From: Siniperca chuatsi
Lineage: Eukaryota > Chordata > Actinopteri > Centrarchiformes > Sinipercidae
Assembly: GCF_020085105.1 (NCBI RefSeq)
Contig: NC_058045.1
Span: forward strand, 11,107,833-11,171,832
DNA length: 64,000 nucleotides
Reading direction: 5' to 3'
Positions 12,574 to 58,700 of this stretch are shown piece by piece. How positions within the stretch are numbered: position 1 is the stretch's first letter; each line of letters starts with the position of its first letter. The position numbers were made by a program, and so were the translations under genes. The notes beneath the pieces were generated by a model. That model did no database searches. It was not told the DNA's origin and saw nothing but the letters and a program-made list of their open reading frames with translations.

Positions 12574-15500
12574 TCTTTATTTATATACCACTTATCAAAA
12601 CAAAGTTACAAAGTGTTTCACATAGCAAGCAGAAAACACATAAAAACATGAAATAAAAACAAATAAAACACAGCAGTAAATGAATAAAAATATTAAATGA
12701 ACCATAATAAAAAATAAAAACTAGAATCAGATGAAATCAGTGAAGGCGGTGCGATAAAAGTACGTTTTAAGCTTAGATTTAAAAGAAGCCACTTACTCAG
12801 CCTGACGTATTTCCTCGGGCAGGGAGTTCCAGAGTCTCGGGGCTCTTATTTCAAAAGCTCTGTCCCCCTTAGTCTTCAGCCGAGAGTCTGGAACACATAA
12901 AAGGCCCCTGCCAGAGGATCTCAAGGTGCGAGCAGGGTTGTATGGGGATAAAAGATCTGAGATATACTGAGGAGTCAGACTGATAAGTGACTTGTAAGTA
13001 ATTAAAAGCACCTTTAAATCAATTCTAAAACGTACCGGAAGCCAGTGTAAAGAGGCTAAAACCGAGGTGATGTGATTGAACCTGTATACTCTGGTTAAAA
13101 GCCTGGCAGCTGAGTTCTGTACTGTCTGTAGCCGGTCTACAGTTTTTCTATTTATGCATGTAAAAACACTGTTACAGGCGTGATGAGATAAAAGCATGTA
13201 AAATAGTTTCTGTGTCTTTAAAACTTAGCATAGGACAAATTATGGGAATGTTCCTTAGTTCATAAAAGCAAGTTTGTACAAGTTTTGTAACGTGTTGCTC
13301 AAAGCTTATTACTTAATTACAGTCAAACAAGATGCCAAGATTTCTATCAGAAGGCTTTATGTACTCAGACAGGTACCCAACACATGGCAGTATTTGACTG
13401 TTTGTGTTACTGGACAATCATTTCTGTTTTGGCTGAGTTCAATTGAAGAAAGTTATTTGACATCCAGTTTCTTACATCTACTAGGCACTCCTGTAAAGAA
13501 CTCAGCATACTAAGATCAGTTGGCTTAATGGGGACGTACAACTGTGTGTCGTCAGCATAACAGTGAAAGGAAACACCATGTCTATGAATTATATTACCTA
13601 GTGGATAAAGAGAGAATAAAATTGGTCCTACAATTGACCCAGCATCAAGAAGTTGCTTAGCCACAATTCTTTTAAATTATTTTGATAAAAGGTAATTTTG
13701 AAATTGGTCGGTAATTTTCATGAACCATATGGTCAAGCCCAGGCTTTTTTAGGAGTGGCTGAACACTAGCAGTTTTGAAGTAGTCAGGGACGTAGCCCAA
13801 GGATAGAGAGCTGTTAAAATTTGATAGCAACCACGGCCCAATCATTTCAGTTGCATTAATTAAAAGCTTTGTTGGCATTACATCCAATGGACAAAAGGAC
13901 ACTTTCATGTGAGCTACAATATTAAAAATTGTGGAAATGGAAACTGGGATGAAGTGGTTGAGGATAACTTGTTCTGGGGACTCAACATCATTGAAAGTTG
14001 TACAGGCCAAACTTTAGGACTGGTCATATGGAGAAATGCAGTGAATGCGTTGTTAGGACATGATATATGAGGTCATCCTCAGGGCGACTGGACTGAATGA
14101 ACTCACTGTCTTCTTAGGAGTATGTATTTGGATTTTATTACATGCTCCTGTAGGCATGTTGCCTAGTCTTTAGTACCGTTTGTATGTTGTTTTTATACAG
14201 TATATTTTACCTGTACGCAATTTGATGTATTCCTTGTGTTTTATATAAACTACCCTGTATACACTTATGTATATATTTTACTACTGGTCACCCACAGTAT
14301 GCTGCCAAGCAACATAAAATGCATGCAAAAGACAAAATTTACCATTGGCTGCAATACTGGTTGCAGAAGTTACCTTATACTATTATAATGAAAGAAATGT
14401 ATCATAGACATCTAATCTTTCTGCTTTTACAGAGCCAGTTTGCCTCATTCAGTTCACATGCTGAAATATTTTGGTTGTATTTAAATTTGAAATAGAGCTT
14501 TGCAGCCCAGATCATGAGCAGCTTTCAGACTCTGTTCATGAGCAGACTCTGAAAGCTTAAAGAAAGGTGCCTGATCAGTGGAAGACCATCACTTTACCTT
14601 CACTTTTGTCTTGAGTTTTGCTCTCTGCCTTTTGTTTAGCCACATTATACAGAGTCTCAGCCTTATCCTTAAATTTCCCTACGAACAAGCAAAAACAAAC
14701 TTAAAATTGTGTGATGAATAACTCAGTCATGTGATAATATTTACAATAATTTAGTTAACATAGAGCAAAATACTAGCCATATAAAATCAAAAACAACAAC
14801 AGCATCATAATCCTTACTGCAGCGCAGAACAATGTCATGAAAGGATCAAAGAACTTATCAAAGGAATTGCACAAGAGGAACTGCTCAGCACAAGACAAGA
14901 CAGGATCTTACTTTTGCTCTCCATTGAAAACCCATTATACTGTTCATGAATTCCAATGCTTCTTTGTCTATTAGAAACAGTGATTTGTTTCAAATGGACA
15001 AATAGACATCTTTAAAAAAAGAATGCAGGGATTTGCTGTTTCCTTTTGATCTAATGTCTCAGATTAAATACATCAAGCAAACATAATCAAAAAATTATAA
15101 TCAATAGCAGAGGTCGATATAGAAAACCGTGTAGTACACAGTACGACGGATAGCAACTGCAAACATCCATTTTGATATTACATGCAAAACATTTCAAACA
15201 ATTTTTTACAGCTTTTTTCCCTTTTAACGGTGCTCATATTCCCCAAATATCACAAATATATTTGATTAACAAACTCATCTTTGTGTATTTTAGTTTGGCA
15301 GCACATCATTATTTAAGGAAGTAAGTAAGATATTTATAATGTTGCTTTAATGCATCTCAATGTCACTAGTGATCTCCAAGAATATAGATGAATGGACGAT
15401 ACAGGGGCTGCTAGCTGTGATCCAGATTTTATAGGCTCATTCAAAAGCTGATTATTGTGCTGGAGTGGTGGAGTGTTCGCTGCCTAGAGGCCCGAGAGAC

Positions 15501-18476
15501 AAGCAAACCAGGAGCCATGGCAACAATTGTTTAACCAGCGAGCACCACATCATAGTTAACAGATTACAGATACTTTTTTTATTATCTAACTGATTTAACA
15601 GAAATGATAACACCTTTTGGTATGCCTCTCACATAATAGAAATTGTTTAATAATCATTAACAATTTAATAATTATTATGTGTAAAACTATCGTTCTGTTG
15701 ACTAATACCATAGCTATATGTGTCCTAAGAATATTTTTCATATTTCACTGTGGGCCTACAACTGGATCCCTCAATAGACTGAGGTAGGTATTTATCTGCT
15801 TAGTATCAATCTGGACTTAGTGTTGCCTTCATTTGGGACACTTTGCTAATCCATTTTACTATAAGAAGGGCGTAGTCCCCAGATCCTCAATATAAGAACA
15901 GTTTTAAAGGCAATTATCAATCAATAGGGTAATCATTGTGGCGATATGGTACTCACCCTCTCCTAGAGGGTCTAATGTGTGGATCATAAGTTGGAAGATG
16001 GTGTTTCTCATGGTGCTGTTGTGTAAAGAAGCTGAACTTCCTCCTCGCTGAAGGGATGGCTTCAACTGGGGGAAAAGATGGCTACGGTCACGACAGCTAC
16101 TTCAACAACAGACAGTGACACATCAATGTAAGACAATTATGCCATAGTGGAGATCAGGCTTGTACTTTTTCTAGAGAAGTGCATTTACATGTGGCAGCAC
16201 TTAAAGGGAGAAATGTTAACATGATGTAATGATGAACGGGACTGTGGAAAGGTCAATAAGATAACACTGTGAGCGTCAAGGGTATCAGGATGTTGTTTTT
16301 TGTGTCTTTCTTTTTGCAGTTGATTGGTTGGTTGATTGTTTGATTTTTACCTTTAAATGATTCTTGTCTTCTGGAGCAGGAGGGGCATTATCTTCATCAT
16401 TCCCATTTTTCTGTGTGCAACAATGTTTTTTCAGTGATAAGCATTCATTGGTAGAGATGGTTATTTCATTTAGTTAGAGCCTAAATATCAGTATATACTG
16501 TATACTATATTCTTATACATTGCTATTTCACACATTGCACACTCTGGGGGTCTTGTTAGTGTTATATCTCAGTAAAAAGATGGAGCTGTGCGTCTTGTAT
16601 AGGATTATAATTTTGTGAAATGATCCCTCACCCTATTAAAACTAAAAAAAAAAGAACACTATGGTGTGATTATGTGTGATATGAAATAGCATTTTCAACA
16701 ACATGACATAATTACATTTGCTCATTAGTTCCACCCAGTTCCAGCAGTGTATCCAGCTCAATAAATGCCCTGAGTGTGCACAAATACTGTAGCTTTACTT
16801 TGTGTAAATTAAGCCTCAATCACACTTACCAGGGTTAAACAAGTATATGTTTATGCTAGTTTGTACAAATCTGTAGCTCCTCAAAAGATTTGTTTGCTGT
16901 GGCTGATCAGCTGGTCCCCCAAGGCCTTTGCTAGTATAATTTCACTCTTTTGACACTATTTGCATAGAACCCCACAGGTGAGAGTAGAGATGTCATGAGG
17001 GAGGAGTAATGTGACTTTCTGTTTCAGTAATAAACCACACTGCTTGTGATGAGTATAACAGAATTAGAGACAAAATTATGCATGAGTGAAAGGGCTAGTT
17101 TCACTACTTTCATGTTAACATGATTAAAAACTAACAAAAATTGTACCAGTAAATAATGTGTTAAGTATCACAAAATCTGCAAATGTTCAACTCATCAAGA
17201 GGTATACATTTCTCTTCAATAGCTGTACACAGATATGTTGTTCTTAAAAGCTCCATAGCTTCGTTCTCAATTACATACCACCGTTGTAACAAATAACTAA
17301 TATACTAATATGCTTAGAAGCATTTAGACAACTTTTTAGACAAATGCCTACACACTTTTAGTTTGTAACTCTTCAGGGTTTCTTCCACACTTTTTTTAGA
17401 CCAGGGTCATGTTCAGTCACAGGAGTGCTTACCTTTTCAGGCTCCTCCACAGCAATAACTCTGACAATGTTCTTGTGTTTGTAGAGTTGGGTCTTGAAGG
17501 CCCGCTCTATTTGTACATTGAACTTCATGAAAATCACATAGAGAGTATAACTGGTCACCAGCATCATGCTCTCCCACCACATTATGACATTATCCAAGAA
17601 GAAGATGATGAGTAAGATGAGGTCAAGTATGTAGAAGGATACATCTCTGAAAAGGGGCCACCAGGTTAGATGAAGTACCTCCCGTGAAAACAAAGCACAC
17701 ATTCCAATCACGAACAAAATGTTGAAAACTGCTGAACCAACGATTGTGCCAATACCCACATTGCTGTGGGCGATGAAGACTCCTATCAAGGAGGTGAAAA
17801 GCTCAGGAGCAGAACCTCCGGCAGCCATGAAGGTGGCTCCTGCCACATCGTCAGAGATGGCTAACTTGTCTGTGATTACCCCCAGCGCAGGAACAAAGAA
17901 CTCATCACACACAATCGCAAGGGAAATGAACATGTACATCATCCCAAAAATGTGGAGGATCACCCAGCCTTGTCTGCGGTCTTCAATAGAAAAGATATCT
18001 TCAGGGTATTCATCCTTAATACGTGGAGCTTCACCAGGAGAAGCTGGAGTGATGGTGGTTACAGGGGGAGCTGGAGCTGGTGTGGGTGTCTCCTGTGGAG
18101 GCTCAGGGGCCACATAGATGCAATGCACAATAGTCCGGTTTGTGGTTGGCAATGATGGAGATTTAGTAGAGGTGGATGCTTTAAAATCTAAAGTTGTATC
18201 CAAATGATGTACCACATGCATCTCTGGGGTTGTTTGATCTGTGGGTTTTAATTCATGTGTTGCAGTGAGAGGTTCCTCCAGCCCCTGAGTCTCTACTGTA
18301 GCCTCCTCAACCCCTTCTGTTGAACCTTCTCCAAAATCCTCTCCAATCTGAGGCATTGGCAAAGGCTCGTACAGTCTGGCACTGATGGTCAACTGGTAGA
18401 GGGTACAGAGAAAAACCCCAGAGAGGAGAAACAGGACCCGGCTCAGCTGCAGTCGCTTCCTTCTTGTACAATACAT
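10893..18476 (-). CDS. slc24a1: SLC24A1 (NCKX1), Na+/Ca2+-K+ exchanger
   Basis: Plasma-membrane exchanger that extrudes Ca2+ with K+ against Na+; in mammals it is the rod outer segment form. Exons in coding order: 18476-17433, 16410-16351, 16065-15957, 14678-14598, 12442-12354, 12150-11875, 11789-11700, 11429-11263, 11142-10893. Phases agree, giving 721 residues. Residues 12-32 form an N-terminal hydrophobic segment, followed by a Thr/Pro/Glu-rich extracellular stretch with an NRT glycosylation site. The alpha-1 repeat has GGSAPEL (Glu about 225); the alpha-2 repeat has GTSIPDL (Asp about 608). The cytoplasmic loop ends in a long Asp/Glu run before PLSLEWP. The [10 protein letters not shown] and [12 protein letters not shown] segments match SLC24A1. 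At 721 residues it is shorter than human (about 1099), mainly in the extracellular and loop regions. ATG at 18476 precedes a basic then hydrophobic start; upstream untranslated exons were not located. Confidence 0.93.
12537..12573. repeat. (AAT)n microsatellite, probable LINE tail
   Basis: About twelve AAT units. They abut the 3' end of the minus-strand LINE, where (ATT)n tails are expected for L2-type elements. Confidence 0.8.
12574..14010 (-). mobile_element. L2-type LINE, degenerate 3' part
   Basis: Minus-strand pieces of a non-LTR retrotransposon lie in an SLC24A1 intron. 14010-13672 holds PLLKKPGLD and [10 protein letters not shown] (reverse transcriptase fingers). 13664-13407 holds [13 protein letters not shown] with the catalytic YADD. 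13197-12793 holds [26 protein letters not shown] and the terminal [10 protein letters not shown] block. 12792-12574 is an A-rich 3' UTR ending in the (ATT)n tail. The frame is broken between blocks and the 5' end is absent, so the element is dead. Confidence 0.8.
14521..14556. repeat. Short intronic hairpin
   Basis: Arms of 14 bases (GCTTTCAGACTCTG and CAGACTCTGAAAGC) differ from perfect pairing at one base and flank an 8-base loop. No function is assigned. Confidence 0.3.
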
Positions 18477-20615
18477 TTTCCTCCAAAGCAGTGATGCTAC
18501 TGGCTATGGAGAATTAAGCTGCATAAATGGGCTTTGGTAGAGGACAAGTCCAGCTCTCTCCCCGGCAGACCATGGGGTAACACAATCCAAAATTTCAGCA
18601 GCGTGATTCATGTCACATCCTCAACTCCTTGGAAAAACCAGACTATTGTAAATGACAAGAAGCATCAGAGATAAAATAGCATTTAGACAGCTGTCTGACA
18701 TAGCATTACTGATTAGCCCATTTAGAAGCTGTTATGACTACTTTCTTTGCACGTTGGTTTCTGAGCAACAGAATGAGCAAAATGAGTGACAGACACAAAC
18801 ACAATAGCAAAGGCAAAACATAAATGCACAAAAAAAAACTGGATAACAATTAAAATAAATTGAAAGTGTCATATGGTAAGGTGTTAATAAATCATAAATA
18901 GAAGAAACAAAACAATGCATTTTAATTACAGATGCAGACTTACCAGAACAAATGTCTTGCAAGGTCAGGGGTGCAAAAATCTCCAAAACCAGATTTCCAC
19001 AGCTGGGTATTGTGGCACAAGGAAAAGCCCAAACCCTTGCCAATGGCCAAAGGGTTATGTAGGACACAGGACAAGTCTTCACAATGGATCAGCATAATAC
19101 CTAATACCTGAAGTCTTCTAAGAGGATTATGTGCATTGTCTCACTCTCACTTTATCATGAGCCTACCTTAGTAATATTTAATTTAGTGCAAAATAAAAGT
19201 GGTGCTTTAGTCTAATGCGATAATGTCTATATAAACTATAGCATAAAAATCCTGTGAAACCTGAGTGCCTTGTTGATTTTGTGTACCTACTTTTTCAGCA
19301 CAGGAATATGAAATTTCCCATTTAAAGTGTGTATTACATAGGAACTATTTATTATAAGGTACACGGTTTTCACCCGGACGGAAGTAGTAGTGCACATTAC
19401 AACACAAATTTTACAGCCCATACATACATATATACATACATAAATATATGTATATACATATGACGTTGGACAAGTCTAAGAGGATTATGTGCAGTGTCTC
19501 ATTATCACACTCAAAACTGATCACAAAAGCATTGGTCATGGAGCCTGGCAGACTTTGGCAATATTCATTTAACTGCCATAAACACACAGTAACAGTGTAT
19601 GCTGTTTTACCTTCAAACGGGAAATTCTTCCTCACCAGTTTCTATGCAGAACTATGCACCAAATTATTAAAAATCCAGGGCTCTGGCCGCTAAATGCCAA
19701 AAGCTAATTGTGCACTCTGGGGTACGATTTTCCTCTTGGGACATCGAGCATCAGCAAGGGGTGGCTCTCGAGAATTATTTTTACATTTCGTGCAGTTTTT
19801 GCACAAAAATAACTTCTCATGTTGATCACTCCGTTTTCTTCTACCGCCACCTGCGCGCGGATCTAAACCTGTCAAAATTTGAACTTTAATACCTCCCAGA
19901 TTTAATATACATAAGCAAATCGAATTAATGATTAAATTATTGAATTTCCCTGCTGATCTATGAATAGATTTTTCAGCACAGAAATATGTGAAGATCACAT
20001 GGGAACTATTTATTCTAAAGTACAGTGCTGTTACCCGGACAGAAGTAGTGCTGCACATTACAACACAAACACTGGATGGGGAGCGAAACGTTCAATGGCA
20101 TGTAACGTTATATATTTAATTTTTGTCATATTAATTGTTCACATTGTAGTTTAACCTATGGATGGTTATCGTCTCACATTTGTTAAATAGTAACCAGAAT
20201 GTTTCTTCCGTTGGGTGTTTTGGCGTTACGTTGCAGAATGCTAGCGTAAGTTAGTCGAAGAACTAGCCAACATTAGCTAACAGTCCTTTGCTGTGACGTG
20301 TTCTTTCATTTTTAGCTTTTAACGTCGTTAATGATCGTTGTTTTAACTAAACTAACCTCACTATGATAACTTACTCTCAAAAGTAGTTGCGCTGAAATTA
20401 ACACTAGTAGCATAATAAGCTACATAATTGACGAATTATCTTGTTAACATGCCCTCCAGCGATAGGAAGATACGCTATTAAACGCTAAGTTAGCCAAATT
20501 CTCAGTTTTGTGCTGTTGTCCTCACAAATATCATCTTTTTCTTTTCCTTCAGTGGGAGCACATTGGAGGGTACTTTGTCCATTATATTATTGGGGATCTA
20601 TATAAGCAGTAAGCC
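18477..20615. promoter_or_regulatory. Divergent SLC24A1/INTS14 intergenic and 5' region
   Basis: The start codons are head to head, 2.1 kb apart. The INTS14 5' UTR part 20553-20615 follows the acceptor TTTTCCTTCAG. A good donor (CTAGC|GTAAGT) at 20246 suggests a noncoding first exon ending at 20245. CCGGAC.GAAGTAGT motifs at 19373-19388 and 20034-20049 resemble ETS-type sites. No coding sequence is seen here. Confidence 0.5.
19291..19408. repeat. Duplicated block, copy 1 (second copy 19969-20069)
   Basis: The block from TTTTCAGCACAG, through GGAACTATTTATT and ACCCGGAC.GAAGTAGT, to GCACATTACAACACAAA occurs here and again at 19969-20069 in direct orientation with modest divergence. A second pair, AAGTCT..AAGAGGATTATGTGCA at 19111-19150 and 19472-19512, has the same order, so a larger segment was duplicated and one copy was later expanded. 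Confidence 0.7.
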
Positions 20616-29179: not shown

Positions 29180-34964
<5,785 letters not shown>

Positions 34965-43705: not shown

Positions 43706-46700
43706 ATGATGAGCAGCCAGCAGACCCTCATTGACCCATTGTTTCGAAGCAAGATGCCATTATTTGACGGGACAATAGCATCCACAGGACTGTCAAAACC
43801 ACAAAATATGTCAGATTTCCTGGGTAAGCAGAGGCTGCAGTACAGCGGGACCTACTTTACTTATGACCCCAGAGGAAAGGATGGAGCACGATTCACTCCT
43901 CCTTGGAGCAACTCAAAGGCCTCTCTGCTGGATGTAAGAAGTCCCGTGAGACTCTCTGGCATGGAGGGACAAAACCACAAAATTTATAGGCAAGACAGCA
44001 GTTCTTCAGAGGAAGGCCATTCTCATTCTTCCTCTTTGCATCACGCCCCAGTAAAAGGCTTTACATTTTACACTAAAAGTCCTGGGATCAGCAGTCCTAC
44101 AGCTGCTACAGCAGTGGATGTTAGAAAACAAAAACATGACAATTCATGTCCCCCATCGGAAAACTCTGTTTACGTAGCGATTCCTAAGCCAGTTTATGGA
44201 CATAACCCTTGCTGTAATGAACTGGGTTATGTGATAGGACAACGATACAGTGTGGAACACGGCTCTCCGAGGACACCAAACACTGTATACGAGCATGACT
44301 GGATGCAAACTGATGCTCACTACACTGAAAGATCGCCCATCCAGAGGAAAGCACAAGAGACACTGCTGCAACAGAGAGGTTTACAGTTTGAGCCCAGTGC
44401 AGAACCGCTGAAGAGGATACCTGTGGAGGCATACAGCCCAGGTAAAGCAAGAACTTTGCCTGCTATCATTGAGCCAAACTACAGCAGTTACCCCTGCACC
44501 CTGACTCGCACACTGTTTGGTTCTTTAAGTGAGCAGAGCCAGCGTTTACAGACTTCCCCCAGAGGCTACCCTAGCTTATACCCCTCCCATCCTACATATG
44601 AGCATATGACCTCAGAGGTTTATCAGGAACATTCTCCCATGTCCAAATATGGCCAGCTAACACAGCACCCGATGTTTTACTACCCCCAGGCAAATGTGGA
44701 GGTAGAAAACAGGACACAGTGTAATGATATTGGCAGTAAACAGAGAGAAGATGTCCCTGTTATTCTTAAACACACAATCTCAAACCCCCGGGAGCATTAC
44801 ATAGTGCCTCAGTCGTTTCATGGTGAAATTTCTTTGCCTTTGCCTAGCACTGAAAGGTTGCCAAATCATTCCTTTATGCAGGGGTTTGACTATCCATGTT
44901 ATGCAGTTCCTAGATTTCATTTAAACGCAAGCCAAATCAGATCCCCCCTAAAAAGGCAACATGCATCACCTATCTTGCACTCCAATCGCATAAATGTTTT
45001 CCCATCCAGCCAATACATGGATCACCACATGGCCTCAGCAACCAACCTACATAAGGACAAACCCAATGCCGGCCTGCATATTGGCCAATCACACACCAAC
45101 TCACCATTCCTACGTGTGGACCAAACCAGTCCTACAAGACGTATCAGCCAACCTGGCGTCTTACCATCCAGCGTACAAATGAACAGATTTTTCCCCCCAC
45201 TCACCAGTCTGCACATAGACCGACCCCACCTCCCACCAACTGGCTTGAACATGGACAGACTCCTGGACTATTCCTCCTGTGAAGCCCAAGTTAAGTGCCC
45301 GGAACAGTCAAAACTTTTTTCCCCAGCTGCATGGCTGCCCCAGTCACCCCATTACAGCTCAGATCAAATCCACACAGCTGTACCTAATAGTGGAAATGTC
45401 AGAAAAATTATTTATTCCCCTGCTGTAGCACCAGGAAATAAACACAATGGCCCTGTGTCCAGTTCAGGCACCGCTGTTCTTAAAGGGTGCCTGAAGAGAA
45501 GTATTTCTCACTCATCTTCACCTATCAAAATAAAAGAAGAGGATAGGGATTTATGTGAAGTGGAACTCATTAAGAAAAGACAAAAGGTGGAAATGGAGAA
45601 TGTACAAATAGGGAAAAAAACTGACTTTCCTCCTATGCCAGTTATTGACAACGTCTTCAGTCTGGCACCTTACCAAGCATACCTGCAGGCCTCTGGAGTG
45701 TTATTTCCAGCCAGAGTACCTCAGAGAACCATCCAGTCGTCTGAGCACTGTGAGGTCAAAACCAAGCCAGACATCAAAGAGAAAAGGCCAGATCGAGATG
45801 AACAGCAGCCTGTTGTCTGTCTAGTTTCCAAAAAAATCTGTGCAGATACTCCAACAGAGAAGCCTGTTGTAGAAAACTTTGAACCCAAAAATATTAAAAT
45901 GGAAATAGTAGATCCATCAGACATAGACAGCTCTGTAGAGACTGTTAGTCAGAGGGACTGCTGCAAAGTAACAATCAAAAAAGAGCTTGAAGAGACTGGT
46001 TCATTCAACAGTGGGCCCATGTTGGTGATAAAGAAATGTGAACCCATTGAACTTGAAAGTAAACCCTCACCAGCAAACGAAAATGAGACTTCGGATGATT
46101 CCAAACCTGGTGAAGTGACTGCACAGATGAACTCGTCTTCTCAGGGGGTTACTTCGAGACCACACGAACAGGTGGCCACCCTTCAACCCAAATCCATTAC
46201 TCCACCTCAACCACCTGAGAGCAAACTAAATTTCAAAAACATTCCCCCCCAGTGTCTCAAACTTTCCAACACCTACAAAATCCTTCTCCCTGATATGAAA
46301 CATTCTAGCCCTGTTCCACACCCAGAGAAGCCACCTGTACAGCCGATTACTGAATTTATACCAAAACTAGAGCTCCAAATGCCAGTCCGCAAGCACTTCT
46401 TTGAGCTGCACCATTCCCTCTGCAAGCTAGTGTCCAAATCTGTGTCGGCCTCTTCAGAGCAGGAGCTCAGAACCTGGTTGTCTCAGTTGGAACTGACTGA
46501 ACCTTTATCTCCGTCAACCAAGGTCCAGAAGGTGTCATGTTTGTTGGGGGTAAAAGCCAGAGAGGCGTGGCTCAATGAGGAGATGAAGTCAGCACTCCAT
46601 AAGGTCCTTGAGAGGTTGAGAGAGTACACTGCCGAGGAACGCTGTCCTTTTCCGCATGTCATGCGGACGGGGGCAGTGTTCCTGCCCATGCTGGTGGTGA

Positions 46701-49700
46701 AGGAGCTGCTGTTTCCAACAGTCCTGGGCAGCTTCATCGACCAGGTCCTGCAAGAGCACAAAGTGGAGCTGCGGCCCACCACGCTCTCCGAAGAAAAGAT
46801 CCTCATCCAGCTTCAAAAGCGAGCCTTTTCCTCCAGGCTCAGGAGACTGATGTCCCTCAAACACCTGCCCGACATCTACGCTGACGTGGTCAACCTTTTG
46901 TATTATGCCTGTGTCTGCAAACATCTGGGTGAGTGCATGTTCACTTCACAGTTACTGAGGTAATATAATGTATATGTGTAGTACAGTGAATGGTTTTCTA
47001 GTAAAGGAAGGAAATGGGTATTGCACTGATGTAGTGTTGGTTACAAACATCTTATTTTAAGTCTTAAAATATGTCTGTTTTCCAAATGAATGTTGCTCTG
47101 GGATGGTATTATGGTATTTAGTCTCTCTAGTGTTGTCAAGCCAGACAAATTAGAGGTGCTGCAGTAAGCAACAGTTGTGTTAATTACCCCTCATGATCAA
47201 ATAAGCAGTTGTGTCCAGCATTTCCCCAACACTAAAGTAAATAAATGTTCATGTAGGAGACAGGAAATAAATGAATAATGGCCACTTATTTTAGGTGTGT
47301 GCATACAAGTGTGATTTTCTTTTTTCCCGTAACTACGGCAGAAAAGAATTGCAATTCATGTTGTCAGTTAAGTAGAGTTTATTGGTCAGGCAGCTATAAA
47401 AATTTAACTTTTCACCTCAGTCATGAGTGAAAAGTATGAATCAGCTTGTAAAAAGGTTTAGGTGTCATTTGTTCTTACAGTTATTTATGATAGATCACAA
47501 GATGCACTGAAATAATTCATGTGATACTGTTTCAGGTAGAAGTTCAACAGGATCTTGGTTTCATGAAATGAAAATCCTTGTTTCTTGACAGATACTTTTT
47601 TTTTCTTGATAATACTTTGATAATTTGACCATGTGATATGTACAACGTGACTGCCAAAGCAACACTTCGACCTGCCTTTCCTTGCCGATTTCTGGAAATC
47701 GCCATTGGGAAGATGCTGTGATTTACTGGATTCTTCTAGATTTTATTATTAAGCATCAGATTTTGACTGTTAACTGTATCATGGTTTTCCCTCAAACAGT
47801 CTTTTAGTAATCCTATTTTCTGCATTATTGGCCCTTTTTGTAAAGAACAAATCACAATAAACTAAATATTCAATATAAAATCCATTTATTTTTTACAGAA
47901 TCAACCTCACCTGATGTCCAAAAGAGAGTCCAGGTATATTTATTTTTTATGTTGTCCCTCAATCTCACTACTCTTTGCTTTTTCTGATTAGAAAGAGCAG
48001 GACACTTCTGCTAACTTTTAGTAACTAATCACAAGAAGTTGCATGATTGCATTATACTTGTTATGGGTGGGTGGAGGGACAGGTGCTGAGCTGGGCTATA
48101 TATCTCCTTCGTGATTTTGTTAGATAGTATTAGTAGACCTTAAGGATTGTGAGGCAGGCTTTTGGATCACATTACCAGAGGAAGGAAGTGACGGCCTGCT
48201 ACACACAGGGGGATTAACTGTGGCACATTTTGAGCCCTTTATGTTAAAGAGAAGTTCATGTTTTCAGAAGATTGTGATCATCATCTTTTAACTGACCAGT
48301 TTCCTCAAAAACCTGCATCTGTGCTGTGTTGTCCTTTAGGGAAGTGGGACTAAACGATTGGTACAGTGAGAAAACAGTTTAATGTCCATATGTCCGTTTT
48401 TAGAAAAAGGCTGGCAATATTCTATATTTTCGCTATTGTCAACAAATCCCATGAAAAGACCAAAACCAACAATGTGTTTCTCTGTCTCTCAATACTTTCC
48501 GACTTCCCCACCCTGCCTGTGGCTCTCAGCCCCAAGCCCATTTGTTCCTACTGAAGGCTGAATCTTAAAAAAAAAAAGGGTTGCAAATATATCTTTTTTT
48601 TTTCTCTAGTTTCTAGCAAATGTTAGTCAAACAGGAATAAATAGTGCATTTGTTCTGACTATGTTCAGTTGCATATTTAGTGCACTAGTGAGTATTTTTG
48701 GCTCCAGTACGGTGTATGTGGGTTTGACTCATAATAAACCACAGTGCCCATCTTCATCATAATGAAGAAGCATGCCACCCAGTGCAATGGTGTGGCTAAT
48801 TTGTGTGTTTTAAATATTTTTAGGACAATAATGGAGGTCTATGGCAGAGAGGAATAAGCTATATCAGTCTTTGGCCATACAGACTTGTTAGTAGGATCAA
48901 TTCATCGTTGGTTTTGGTCCTTTTATGGGATTTGTTGACAATAAGAAAGATAAAATATCGCCAGACTTGTCCTTTTTAAATCACTTTTTTATTTTGTATC
49001 CTTTTAACATCTGTTATTTTGGCTAACTGAATTGGCACTTAATCAAATTTCTGTTCACTGCTGACATGATTAACAGTTCACATGGTTTGGGAGCACTTGA
49101 CTGGTATCTGAACATTTGCCTTGTCTTACTCTTGCCCAATTGCTGTTTTATCCCGGACTGATAGCATCCCTTGTAGCAGCTGACTTTTTCCCAGCCTTCG
49201 TGTTTACTCCCACAGCCCTTCTATTCTGTCTCTGCTGAAAGGGTGTTTCATGGTGAAGGATCATGCTGTCCAATCACCATGTCTGCTGATTAATAGAATA
49301 GTTTCTCATTGTTCTTGTGTGCTGAATAAGCGCTATGGAAGCACTGATTTGTCAACTGTAAGGAGATGTTGGACTTTGTGGTTGCTAGCTTGCTTTTTAG
49401 GAATAATCTGTTGGGAAACAAAGTGAATTTATTTCTTTTATTTATATTTGTTTGTGTCAGAAATCCTGAACATCCACTTGTATCTAATGTTTCCCTGATC
49501 ACTAAATCACTTCTATAAACTCTGTAACTCTTACCGTCCCATTTTGTCTGCAACCTAATTTTTATATATCTGGCATATTTCTGTATTTATTTTGACCTCT
49601 CCTAATTGCTATATTCCCTGTGTTGCAGGATTAGATATGGACGATCCTGCTAACAGAGAAAAAGATGAAGGTTGTGAGGAGACTATCAGCTGCAGGACTC

Positions 49701-50749
49701 CTGTATTTTCAGACATTGCTGACTCACCCTCAGAGTTGCACCCAGAGAGACATCTGAAGGACCAGGCAACAAAATCAAATTTGAACAGGAATAAAACAAA
49801 AAGCAGGGTAAAGAGCAGTTCGAGGCGTATGTTTCTGGACAACAGTTTATCAATTGAGGAAGAGACTGATGACACAGAAAAGGCCGTAAGTGGAGGCGTG
49901 CTGAATGCATTTAGCGAGAAAATCTGGAGTGGCCATCAGTCTGAAGGGACTGAGAATAGAGGAATTGACGGTACGGTTATAGAGCAGGATTCTTCACTCA
50001 TTCGACTAAGCACAACTTCTGAGAATTCATGGACATGTCCTTTAACCTTGGATGAGCTTTCTCCATCTCCCAGTGACACAGAAACAGAGGAATCCTCCAG
50101 TCCGTGGCCTGTTAGTCAGCCCTCAGGACCAGCCAAATCTCCGGTTAGATCCAACAATTGTTCAGGCATGATTATCAAACTGCGGCGGATGTTTAGCAAA
50201 GGTCTAAATAGAAAAAAGGCCCGCTACCAAGCAATCTCAGACTCTGGGACATTCACTGATCCTTCCCTCTCACAGACTGATGATGGGGAGGGAGAAGTAA
50301 GCAGCGAGAGTGACCTTCAGAGGAGGACGCCCAAAGTAACCCACAGGTGGCAAAGAACAGGAAGCTTCTCTCATGCATTAAGACCCCTGACCAGCTCTTC
50401 TAAAAGAAAACACAGATCGCTCTTAAAGATCAAATACTGTCCCTACTTGTCTGCCTGCCACAGCGCCGAACATAGGAGGCGATGGGTCCTGCGCTCGGCG
50501 GTCCAGAGGGCTCAGAGGGCCATGAGGTTCTACTACCCAGACCTGGTGGGAAAGAGGATTCGCCATCTGTATGAAGAAGATGACAAATCAGAAGTGTGGT
50601 ACAGAGGAGAAGTGTTAGGTATCCATGAGGCCCACACCAACCCTCTAAAGACTATATTTGAGGTCAGGTATGACAGTGAGCCAGAGTGGAAATACTACCT
50701 GGAGCTGCTGATAGACTATAAAAAAGGTTGGCTCAAGATTGAGGACTAG
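43706..50749 (+). CDS. c15orf39: C15orf39 homologue with Spindlin-like C-terminal segment
   Basis: Poorly characterised vertebrate protein, largely disordered. Two coding exons: 43706-46928 and 49629-50749. The donor CTGG|GTGAGT leaves one base and the last exon needs exactly one (G+GA), giving 1447 residues. Family landmarks are PPMPVIDNVFSLAPY (near residue 642), then RCPFPHV (near 978), HKVELRPTTLSEE and LPDIYADVVNLL. Lysine motifs IKIKEE, IKMEIV and IKKELEE fit sumoylation consensus sites. Basic stretches KKRQK and SSKRKHR may be nuclear signals. Residues 1381-1447 read VGKRIRHLYEEDD...WYRGEV...FEVRYD...YYLEL, resembling a Spindlin/Ssty Tudor-like repeat with Trp1398, Tyr1422 and Tyr1430/1431 at cage-like positions. 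Human C15orf39 (about 1047 residues) lacks this part as I recall it. First exon identity is secure; last-exon joining rests on phase and the HLG.D.D match. Confidence 0.85.
47899..47933 (+). other. Possible 35-nt cassette exon in the C15orf39 homologue
   Basis: It lies between a good acceptor (ATTTATTTTTTACAG) and a donor (CAG|GTATAT). In frame with the first exon it encodes ESTSPDVQKRVQ. Because 35 is not a multiple of three, the last exon would then be read GAT TAG and stop at once, yielding about 1087 residues without the Spindlin-like domain. There is no transcript evidence. Confidence 0.35.
48400..48981. mobile_element. MITE with about 75-bp terminal inverted repeats
   Basis: GTCAACAAATCCCATGAAAA with flanks (48401-48480) is repeated in inverted form at 48905-48980 (TTTTATGGGATTTGTTGACA). 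The similarity extends over the GAAAAAGG.CTGGC.ATATT outer block. There is no transposase; ends near TTA/TAA suggest a Harbinger-like origin. It sits in the C15orf39 intron. Confidence 0.65.
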
Positions 50750-55777: not shown

Positions 55778-58700
55778 TCAATCCTCAATGTACTCCCACA
55801 GGTCCTTCTCATAGCCTTCATGCACGTGCTGTAGCAGCACTCTTCGCCTGCTCTCACAGTATCTGTAGAGACACAAAAAAAGTTAAGAGTCCAAGAACAC
55901 ATATGTGCAAGTGGCAGGTGATTGCGATTCTTCCTTCACTGACCTGTACTTATCTTGTACTTTCTGCTTGATGTCCTGCAGGGAGTCCTGGGAGATATCC
56001 CGCTCTAGGTAGCCAGAGAGCACCTCAGTGGCATTTTCCAGGTCTGCCTGGTTGTTCTGATTAACCAAACAATATACACAGCATAGATTAAAAACACACA
56101 ATTGTCAATTATCCATGATAATGTCCCCTAAACTTAGGAGTGTCCTGTCTAAGGCCCAGCTCAGACTACAGGACATTAGGGCCGATTTCCTCCCATTCGC
56201 CACTCCCAACAATCAGGTGACTACTTTGGTCTTGGGTCTTTGTCAATGGACTAGTTCTGCTGCCAGACAGAGGAACAATGAATAGAAATGTGGCCAGAAT
56301 TACGTGGGACAATACGTCTTCCAAGAATAATCATAACTGTATAGACAAAGAGAAGCTTTGGGAGTAAGTCACACTTCACAAGAGAGAGAGTGTGTGTGAA
56401 TGAGAGAAGTGAGAGAGATGAACATGTGTGTCAGAGAGAGAAAGCTAAAGGTGGTGCATGGTTCCCTCTGGCAAGATAATCAAATACTATGTACTACAAT
56501 ATTTTCTATTTCTAATCTTGTGTTTGACAAAATTTGTCTTTTTGATGGAATGTAGTTTCTCAATTGTTAAGGATCTTAAAAACTTGTTATCTGAGTCTGG
56601 CCTGAGGACTAGTTGACCAAAATAGGGATATGGCTATATATACCAGGGTTGATGACTATATTATGATAATAAAACACAATAAATAAGAATAATGTATATT
56701 TTGTTTCTAGTTACTAACAATAAATGGGTGTTTAACTGCTTTCCCTTAAAAAGTTTGTGCTTTATCTTTCTCATTGTTCCTTATTGTTTGCCATCTCTTT
56801 CTCTCTTCTCTCCCCCTCCTCCTCTCGATCACATACAAGCGTGCACACAAACTGTAAAACCAAACCATTGAGCAAAAAGAGGGAGTTTCATTCATTAATA
56901 TAAAAAACATTGATTAGTTGCACTTCAAAAGTAAACAGAATTATTTTGTTGATGGTGTTTGTGATATTATGAACATTTAACAACACTAACTGTGCAAATG
57001 GTATTTCTGAATAAAATATGAATGCTAAAATAGCTCTAGTCATTTATGTCATGCACCATCTGTTCACATTCATGACATTTAAGCAAACAATTTCCCTTTT
57101 TATCATACCTCAAAAATAATGGACTGGTTGTTCTTCTTGAGGTAGAAGGCAAAGACGTAAGTGAACATGAGTGTGGAGCGGCACTGGCACAGCACATCCA
57201 CAGCCTTCTTCAGAAACTGCACCTCAATCCAGGACATGTTGTGCTGCTGCATCTCCTCCATCTTCTGCTTGACCTGAGCATAGAGCTTGTGCTCAAAGCG
57301 CAGGCTCTGCATGTGGTTCATGTAGCGGTTGCAGTAGAACAGGTACCTCTGCAAGGCTGCCCTGGAGCGCTGCACACACAGCATGGAACTGGCTGTAACT
57401 CAAGCATGCTCAACTTGACATGTAAATCTTCAAACTCACTGGATACTGGATCATAAGGCAACATAGTGTATAATGAAATGTCTAAATTGTATTCTGCAGG
57501 CGTTTCATGCTAGACATCATTCTTTAGTATGCAACAGCCATCCATGTTTGTCAGAGGTGTAATGGACATTTATTATCAGGCAGACACAGCAGCATTCCCT
57601 GTACTGTTTCCACCCCACTGAATGTTTTTCAATAAACATTTTAATGGTGTACAGCAGGGTTACATGAGGAACTGTCACTAGTTTGATTAGTTGGAGTGGA
57701 TTACATTCTTATAAAATTTAGTAGATATTTTTGTTGCAGGCTATAAAATAGTTGTGGTATTTATCAAATTATATACATTTATTCAGTACTTTTTATCTGA
57801 ATTTTGTGTCATCCCGTGCAGTGAGATGGAAACAATACTGCTGCATCTGTGTGATTAGAAATGGTAGTTACACCTGTGGCAAATATGGCTGAAGAAGGGC
57901 ATCTTGACTGAAAAGTGGACAAATATAAATATTGTGCCATTATGTGGCATAACCGCCAAAATAAAACTGTATGCAAAGGTTTTAAAATGTATCAATAGGA
58001 GTATCATTTATTACCTCTTGAGCATCTCTGGCTGCCTTTGCATCATCTTCATTATAGCGATTGCAGTTGTACCTGAAACAACACAGCCAGGTCAGAACCA
58101 TCAAGAGTGTTTTCCAGAATACCATAACACACATCGCTACTGTTTGACAATATTTTATGTTTTCATGCTTTCTCATATAAAAGATGTCAGATGTGTATTT
58201 AGACATGAAATGGCATGACACTTTGCACCTGATATTGAAATTGATAAATTTCCACATATTTAAGTTTTTAATTGAAATTAAAACCCATACTATCACAAAA
58301 AAGACCTACTTGGATTATATTCCAATATGGCACTAGCAGTGATACCATCATCATTTACTTTATAAGCCATTAGTTCTTACCAGGCTGAGCCGTGGGGTTC
58401 CCATGGACCCAGGCAGACCCAGCAGAACTCAGCTTTGCAGTTCTGGTTCCGACAAACCATGTGATTGCAGCCACCATCTTTCTCAATGGTCACATGGCAT
58501 TTTGGACACTCCTTTCAGGAGAGGAGAGTAATTACTTTTCTAAGTCTCTGCTCAAGGTCAATTGCTTTACAAAAGTATGACAAAAATCAAATTTTTCCAC
58601 AATTGAAATGTCTTTGTGGTCATCACATTAATTCCCTACCAACATGGACCAGACAAGAGGGCAAAACTAAGTTCACTTTGATTCGATTACATACCTTAGT

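Follow-up and report, generated by a model that had tools for sequence, protein, structure and literature searches.

In the genome of Siniperca chuatsi (assembly GCF_020085105.1) we analysed a window of 64,000 nucleotides, positions 11,107,833-11,171,832 of the forward strand of NC_058045.1. By its sequence, the gene studied here is a homologue of C15orf39, a human gene whose role is almost unknown and which figures in Pfam only as a domain of unknown function (DUF). Its last coding exon ends in a 67-residue domain whose match to the histone-reading repeat of Spindlin proteins is supported by the searches described below. Such a repeat had been proposed in an earlier reading of this DNA made from its letters only, hereafter the sequence-only reading. 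In window coordinates, the gene consists of the following parts.

43706..46928, plus strand: C15orf39 body exon, covering residues 1-1074 and one base of codon 1075, with PF17663 and a GT donor at 46929 (phase 1)
46619..46927, plus strand: conserved core, residues 972-1074, with a predicted SKI/Dachshund-like fold
46929..49628, plus strand: intron from the body exon to the last exon, GT...AG with agreeing phases; a matching junction peptide occurs in several teleost proteins
47899..47933, plus strand: candidate 35-nucleotide cassette exon within this intron, recognized by its AG and GT borders and its translation
49629..50749, plus strand: last coding exon, phase 1 after AG, encoding a basic linker of variable sequence followed by the domain and the TAG stop
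50546..50746, plus strand: single Spin-type Tudor repeat, the final 67 codons (residues 1381-1447), placed by sequence, profile, profile-profile and predicted-structure searches; the stop TAG follows at 50747-50749

PF17663 was found in the body exon with E = 9.6e-44 and 150.2 bits, for a Pfam cut-off of 26.8. The gene model begins at 43706 and covers two coding exons, any upstream exons lying outside it. Joining 43706-46928 to 49629-50749 (GT donor, AG acceptor, phase 1 on both sides) gives a 1447-residue protein, and its translation agrees with the C-terminal stretch of 67 residues, the numbering 1381-1447 and the residues W1398, Y1422 and Y1430/1431 given by the sequence-only reading. In a search with residues 1330-1447, using precomputed domains, PF17663 and the domain stood within one protein in 95 of 95 matches, and our domain hidden Markov model (HMM) detects the repeat in the same 95 proteins, although one (P0066) is partial. 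This co-occurrence, together with an exon junction common to several close relatives, leads us to reject a separate gene for the last exon. Among 18 non-teleost homologues, the mean pairwise identity, with gaps counted as differences, is 0.74 for the domain, 0.17 for the linker and 0.71 for the core piece. Sumoylation-like motifs (psi-K-x-E), also mentioned in the sequence-only reading, do occur at residues 609, 730 and 757; a fourth, at 1443, falls within the domain itself. Many non-teleosts also have a basic motif resembling TRSTSKVLHLRNSMVxIKF ahead of the domain. In long homologues such as P0080 and P0063 this motif lies near residues 1330-1380; a narrow pattern for it matches 16 of 106 domain proteins, and more are found by eye.

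When the 67 residues were compared by phmmer with all PDB chain sequences, the 17 matches at E ≤ 10 were all spindlins, the best of them (2.8e-6) to repeat 2. A search with the whole 372-residue exon, made without preselection of the 67 residues, returned spindlins as 17 of its 18 matches (the best at 4.4e-5, over exon residues 303-370), the remaining one being a designed protein at 0.82. By these searches the similarity goes beyond chance. A profile built from 20 sequences recovered 17 spindlin sequences at 1.4e-7 to 7.5e-7, followed by UHRF1 from 0.014. Profile-profile comparison by hhalign gave 95.3% against three repeat-2 stretches, over all 60 residues, and 47.3% against three repeat-1 stretches, which are shorter; as controls, none of 20 column-shuffled versions of the alignment exceeded 0.7%, and the unrelated core gave 0.1%. 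The AlphaFold2 (AF2) model of the domain predicts a five-stranded barrel, judged by its strands and by the predicted local distance difference test (pLDDT). In a Foldseek search with this predicted structure spindlins lead, the ranking of structural families covering Foldseek's own candidates only. The Tudor domains of UHRF1, SGF29 and RDM15, SH3-like barrels with a methyl-lysine cage, also resemble the predicted domain. A Spin-type Tudor fold at the superfamily level is thus supported, in part through predicted models, with spindlin repeats as the nearest relatives by sequence and structure. The fold-level match to Spindlin/Tudor proteins implied by the sequence-only reading was therefore found by sequence, profile and predicted structure, with spindlins leading in each of these, and in the profile-profile comparison too.

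A study of SPIN1 (PMC7864079) describes the cage of its second Tudor repeat as Phe141, Trp151, Tyr170 and Tyr177, with affinity falling about 2800-fold in Y170A and 130-fold in F141A, and contacts of D189 with H3A1, of D184, Q180 and E142 with H3R2, and of D173 and Y177 with H3R8. The same cage is named in a second study (PMC8213585), which adds His139, Tyr179 and Asp184 to the pocket. We counted the residues at these positions in 104 complete homologues, the partial P0066 being dropped; as these are mutually related, they do not represent 104 independent tests. The corresponding codons are as follows.

50570..50572, plus strand: codon of Y1389, aligned with SPIN1 cage residue Phe141; placental tails stop here
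50597..50602, plus strand: codons of W1398 and Y1399, Y1399 being aligned with SPIN1 cage residue Trp151
50669..50671, plus strand: codon of Y1422, aligned with SPIN1 cage residue Tyr170; Y in 104/104
50693..50695, plus strand: codon of Y1430, aligned with SPIN1 cage residue Tyr177; Y in 104/104

From sharks to turtles, every one of the 104 homologues has an aromatic residue at each of the four cage positions of SPIN1 repeat 2. Position 1389 is Y in 94 and F in 10, position 1399 is Y in 95 and F in 9, and the neighbouring W1398 is W throughout (104/104). Among the cage aromatics listed in the sequence-only reading, Y1422 and Y1430 do align with the SPIN1 cage, but Trp151 aligns with Y1399 and not with W1398, and Y1389 had not been listed; the second cage wall may be Y1399 or W1398. 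The pocket and contact positions H1387 (= H139), E1425 (= D173), E1433 (= Q180) and D1437 (= D184) do not vary (104/104 each), and E1390 (= E142) is E in 95 and D in 9.

The domain therefore has in common with repeat 2 of the Spindlin family (SPIN1-4; PF02513) its sequence, its predicted fold, the four aromatic cage positions and the acidic contact positions for the arginine that precedes the methyl-lysine. We consider it likely that the last exon encodes one Spindlin-type Tudor repeat, a predicted reader of methyl-lysine with a four-aromatic cage, whose target would most likely be histone H3 trimethylated at lysine 4 (H3K4me3). The cage would consist of Y1389, Y1399 (or W1398), Y1422 and Y1430, while E1390, E1433 and D1437 would grip the arginine two positions ahead of the methyl-lysine, in the way that the corresponding SPIN1 residues grip H3R2. 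No report of a Spindlin/Tudor-type domain in C15orf39 was found in the literature searched, which left most subscription papers and preprints outside.

Several observations weigh against this reading. With Pfam Spin-Ssty (PF02513) the domain reaches 15.6 bits and the exon 11.8, both below the gathering cut-off of 25, which is why none of the 95 matches carries a Spin label. Agenet (13.9 bits) and ARF_AD (12.3 bits) come near this score on the domain, the weak side of the identification, and over 20 representatives Agenet matches 15 and Spin-Ssty 14, although the best E is 0.00039 for Spin-Ssty and a weaker 0.007 for Agenet. The other four AF2 models have a lower mean pLDDT, down to 43.2. At the Trp151 position the domain has Tyr or Phe, L1432 replaces the pocket residue Tyr179 (104/104), and W1442 replaces the H3A1-binding Asp189 (104/104), so that the acidic anchor of H3A1 is missing. 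In addition, SPIN1 uses two repeats for bivalent marks whereas here there is one, some lizard and amphibian records are without the domain, and human C15orf39 is described in one report as mainly cytoplasmic as well as nuclear (PMC11173073). Strict membership of the Spindlin family fails: spindlins have three tandem repeats, whereas this 1447-residue protein has a single one at its end, below the Pfam cut-off. Indeed, the domain HMM with filters off found no second repeat above 5 bits in 106 domain sequences, which rules out more than one repeat per protein; a Spin-type repeat is thus found outside Spindlin proteins in single copy.

The low Pfam score, taken alone, would suit a chance resemblance or an exon of another gene, an explanation that is hardly conceivable with the tools used here: searches by sequence, by profile and by fold concur with the shuffle-controlled profile-profile comparison, and every one of the 95 matches joins the domain to PF17663. 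Tudor-like barrels without methyl binding exist, and lone repeats outside spindlins have no measured activity. That the barrel reads no methyl mark and serves only as a structural or a nucleic-acid- or protein-binding module is nevertheless quite unlikely, in view of the aromatics conserved at all four cage positions in the 104 homologues.

The substitution at W1442 bears on the target itself. The conserved cage and acidic positions, with this substitution, suggest a methyl-lysine pocket and arginine contacts like those of SPIN1, without its anchor for the H3 N-terminus. A free N-terminus may then matter less, and an internal R-x-Kme site would be possible. It could even be that a true Spin-type Tudor fold takes up methyl-arginine, or a methylated protein other than a histone, in its cage in place of H3K4me3. 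The invariant Trp would fit this, as it leaves room for targets other than the H3 N-terminus. So would PRMT2, an arginine methyltransferase that human C15orf39 is reported to bind (PMC11173073); the same report describes C15orf39 as restraining NF-kB in a microglial line. We regard this alternative as unlikely, because the domain retains the cage and arginine-contact positions of repeat 2, which binds H3K4me3, and resembles repeat 2 over repeat 1 in the hhalign comparison, with the shorter repeat-1 stretch in mind.

Presences and absences were counted over the 275 homologues fetched. Each entry stands for a cluster, within which a longer isoform may go unnoticed; class tallies were taken from species names and checked against the domain HMM result. 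The domain is present in 105 of the 275: 66 ray-finned fishes (including gar and sturgeon), the coelacanth, 4 cartilaginous fishes, 10 named amphibians (a caecilian, a newt and 8 frogs), 23 turtles and squamates and 1 unnamed entry. Among the same fetched homologues the HMM did not find it in 62 named birds, 52 named placentals, 4 marsupials, one echidna and 14 unnamed mammal-type entries. The other 37 records without it are either unnamed or represent short isoforms from turtles, squamates, amphibians and one alligator. Crocodilians are represented by one short isoform and monotremes by one echidna short isoform. In the search with residues 1330-1447, at E up to 1 and with 115 candidates, no bird, crocodilian or mammal was among the named matches. 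Since the domain occurs from cartilaginous fishes and the coelacanth to amphibians, turtles and squamates, a gain in fish, one of two histories offered by the sequence-only reading, is ruled out, and the other, an ancestral module lost in mammals, fits.

In mammals the PF17663 body and the core are retained, whereas therian long tails terminate before or inside strand 1 of the domain; these stops were deduced from protein records, not from mammalian DNA. Each of the three marsupial long tails (wombat, dunnart and monito) has PYPELVG or AYPELVG as its last residues and thus includes no more than the initial two residues of the domain. Forty of 43 other tails of the same type (37 named placental, 6 unnamed) stop exactly six residues beyond the LVG position; of the exceptions, P0202 is one residue shorter, and P0219 and P0236 stop earlier, at WGHKA. 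Placental tails such as PQLLGSQSHHL align without gaps with PELVGKRIRHL, and the placental stop would therefore fall where Y1389 would be. As the marsupial and placental stops differ, either the two lineages were cut separately or one of them was trimmed further. Marsupials and placentals have probably lost the reader through stop codons at two different places while keeping a reader-less protein. A domain kept but diverged in mammals is ruled out by these tails ending by strand 1 and by the HMM, which with filters off gave at best -3.4 bits or less across 170 proteins without the domain. Some bird records depart from the conserved sequence soon after the last exon begins (P0115).

A reader-less form may also arise by splicing. 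Inclusion of 47899-47933 shifts the frame and adds ESTSPDVQKRVQD before a stop, giving a 1087-residue protein without the domain. The gar protein P0063 has DSTSPAGLQNSVQ at the same place, a peptide similar to the cassette reading of the window. A short conserved tail of the type G-SSSQAGQHASK directly follows the core and terminates the protein in 55 of 276 cases (pattern count), 34 of them from birds and the rest from turtles, squamates, an alligator, caecilians, a salamander, frogs, one marsupial and some unnamed entries. These peptides are consistent with an old cassette exon that would choose between reader-bearing and reader-less isoforms, its inclusion likely making the second of these.

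The core itself, residues 972-1074, gave a Foldseek match of its predicted structure to the SKI/SNO/DAC (Dachshund homology) fold, with E of only 0.05. It differs from the SKI/SNO/DAC domain in having no detectable sequence similarity: a 15-sequence profile found no SKI/DAC match in PDB or Pfam searches, and an SKI/DAC identity by sequence was rejected. The reader would carry this predicted SKI/Dachshund-like core to marked chromatin. If the human protein, which is absent from the named records, ends like that of other placentals, the PRMT2 and NF-kB effects would not depend on the Spin-type repeat.

PRMT2 makes H3R8me2a. We can imagine an ancestral jawed-vertebrate C15orf39 acting as a writer-reader scaffold, with a PRMT2-recruiting SKI/Dachshund-like core and a Spin-type H3K4me3 reader switched by the cassette exon; marsupials and placentals would have fixed the reader-less state by separate stops, the placental one at a cage tyrosine, and the human protein would be a truncated remnant without chromatin address. 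This picture is doubtful as a whole; if true, the mark of PRMT2 and H3K4me3 would be the pair that SPIN1 reads together. The likely reader domain in fish, shark, amphibian, turtle and squamate orthologues by itself gives the family a concrete hypothesis at the molecular level and points to the organisms in which to test it. Mammals would have kept the gene while dropping its probable chromatin-reading end, an activity that would escape studies limited to the human or mouse protein.

Elsewhere in the 64-kb window, transfer RNA and Rfam scans gave no match. Two open reading frames within 12793-14013 (minus strand) resemble by eye pieces of a reverse transcriptase of long interspersed nuclear elements, with no Pfam match, and a Tc1/mariner-like transposase remnant lies at 32274-32825 (plus strand; DDE_3, 5.6e-11). 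A sodium/calcium exchanger exon at 17373-18503 (minus strand; PF01699, 6.3e-30) presumably belongs to an SLC24 gene. Downstream of C15orf39 and on the opposite strand, 57103-57399 (minus strand) is an Ariadne-domain exon (PF19422, 3.5e-12), presumably of ARIH1.
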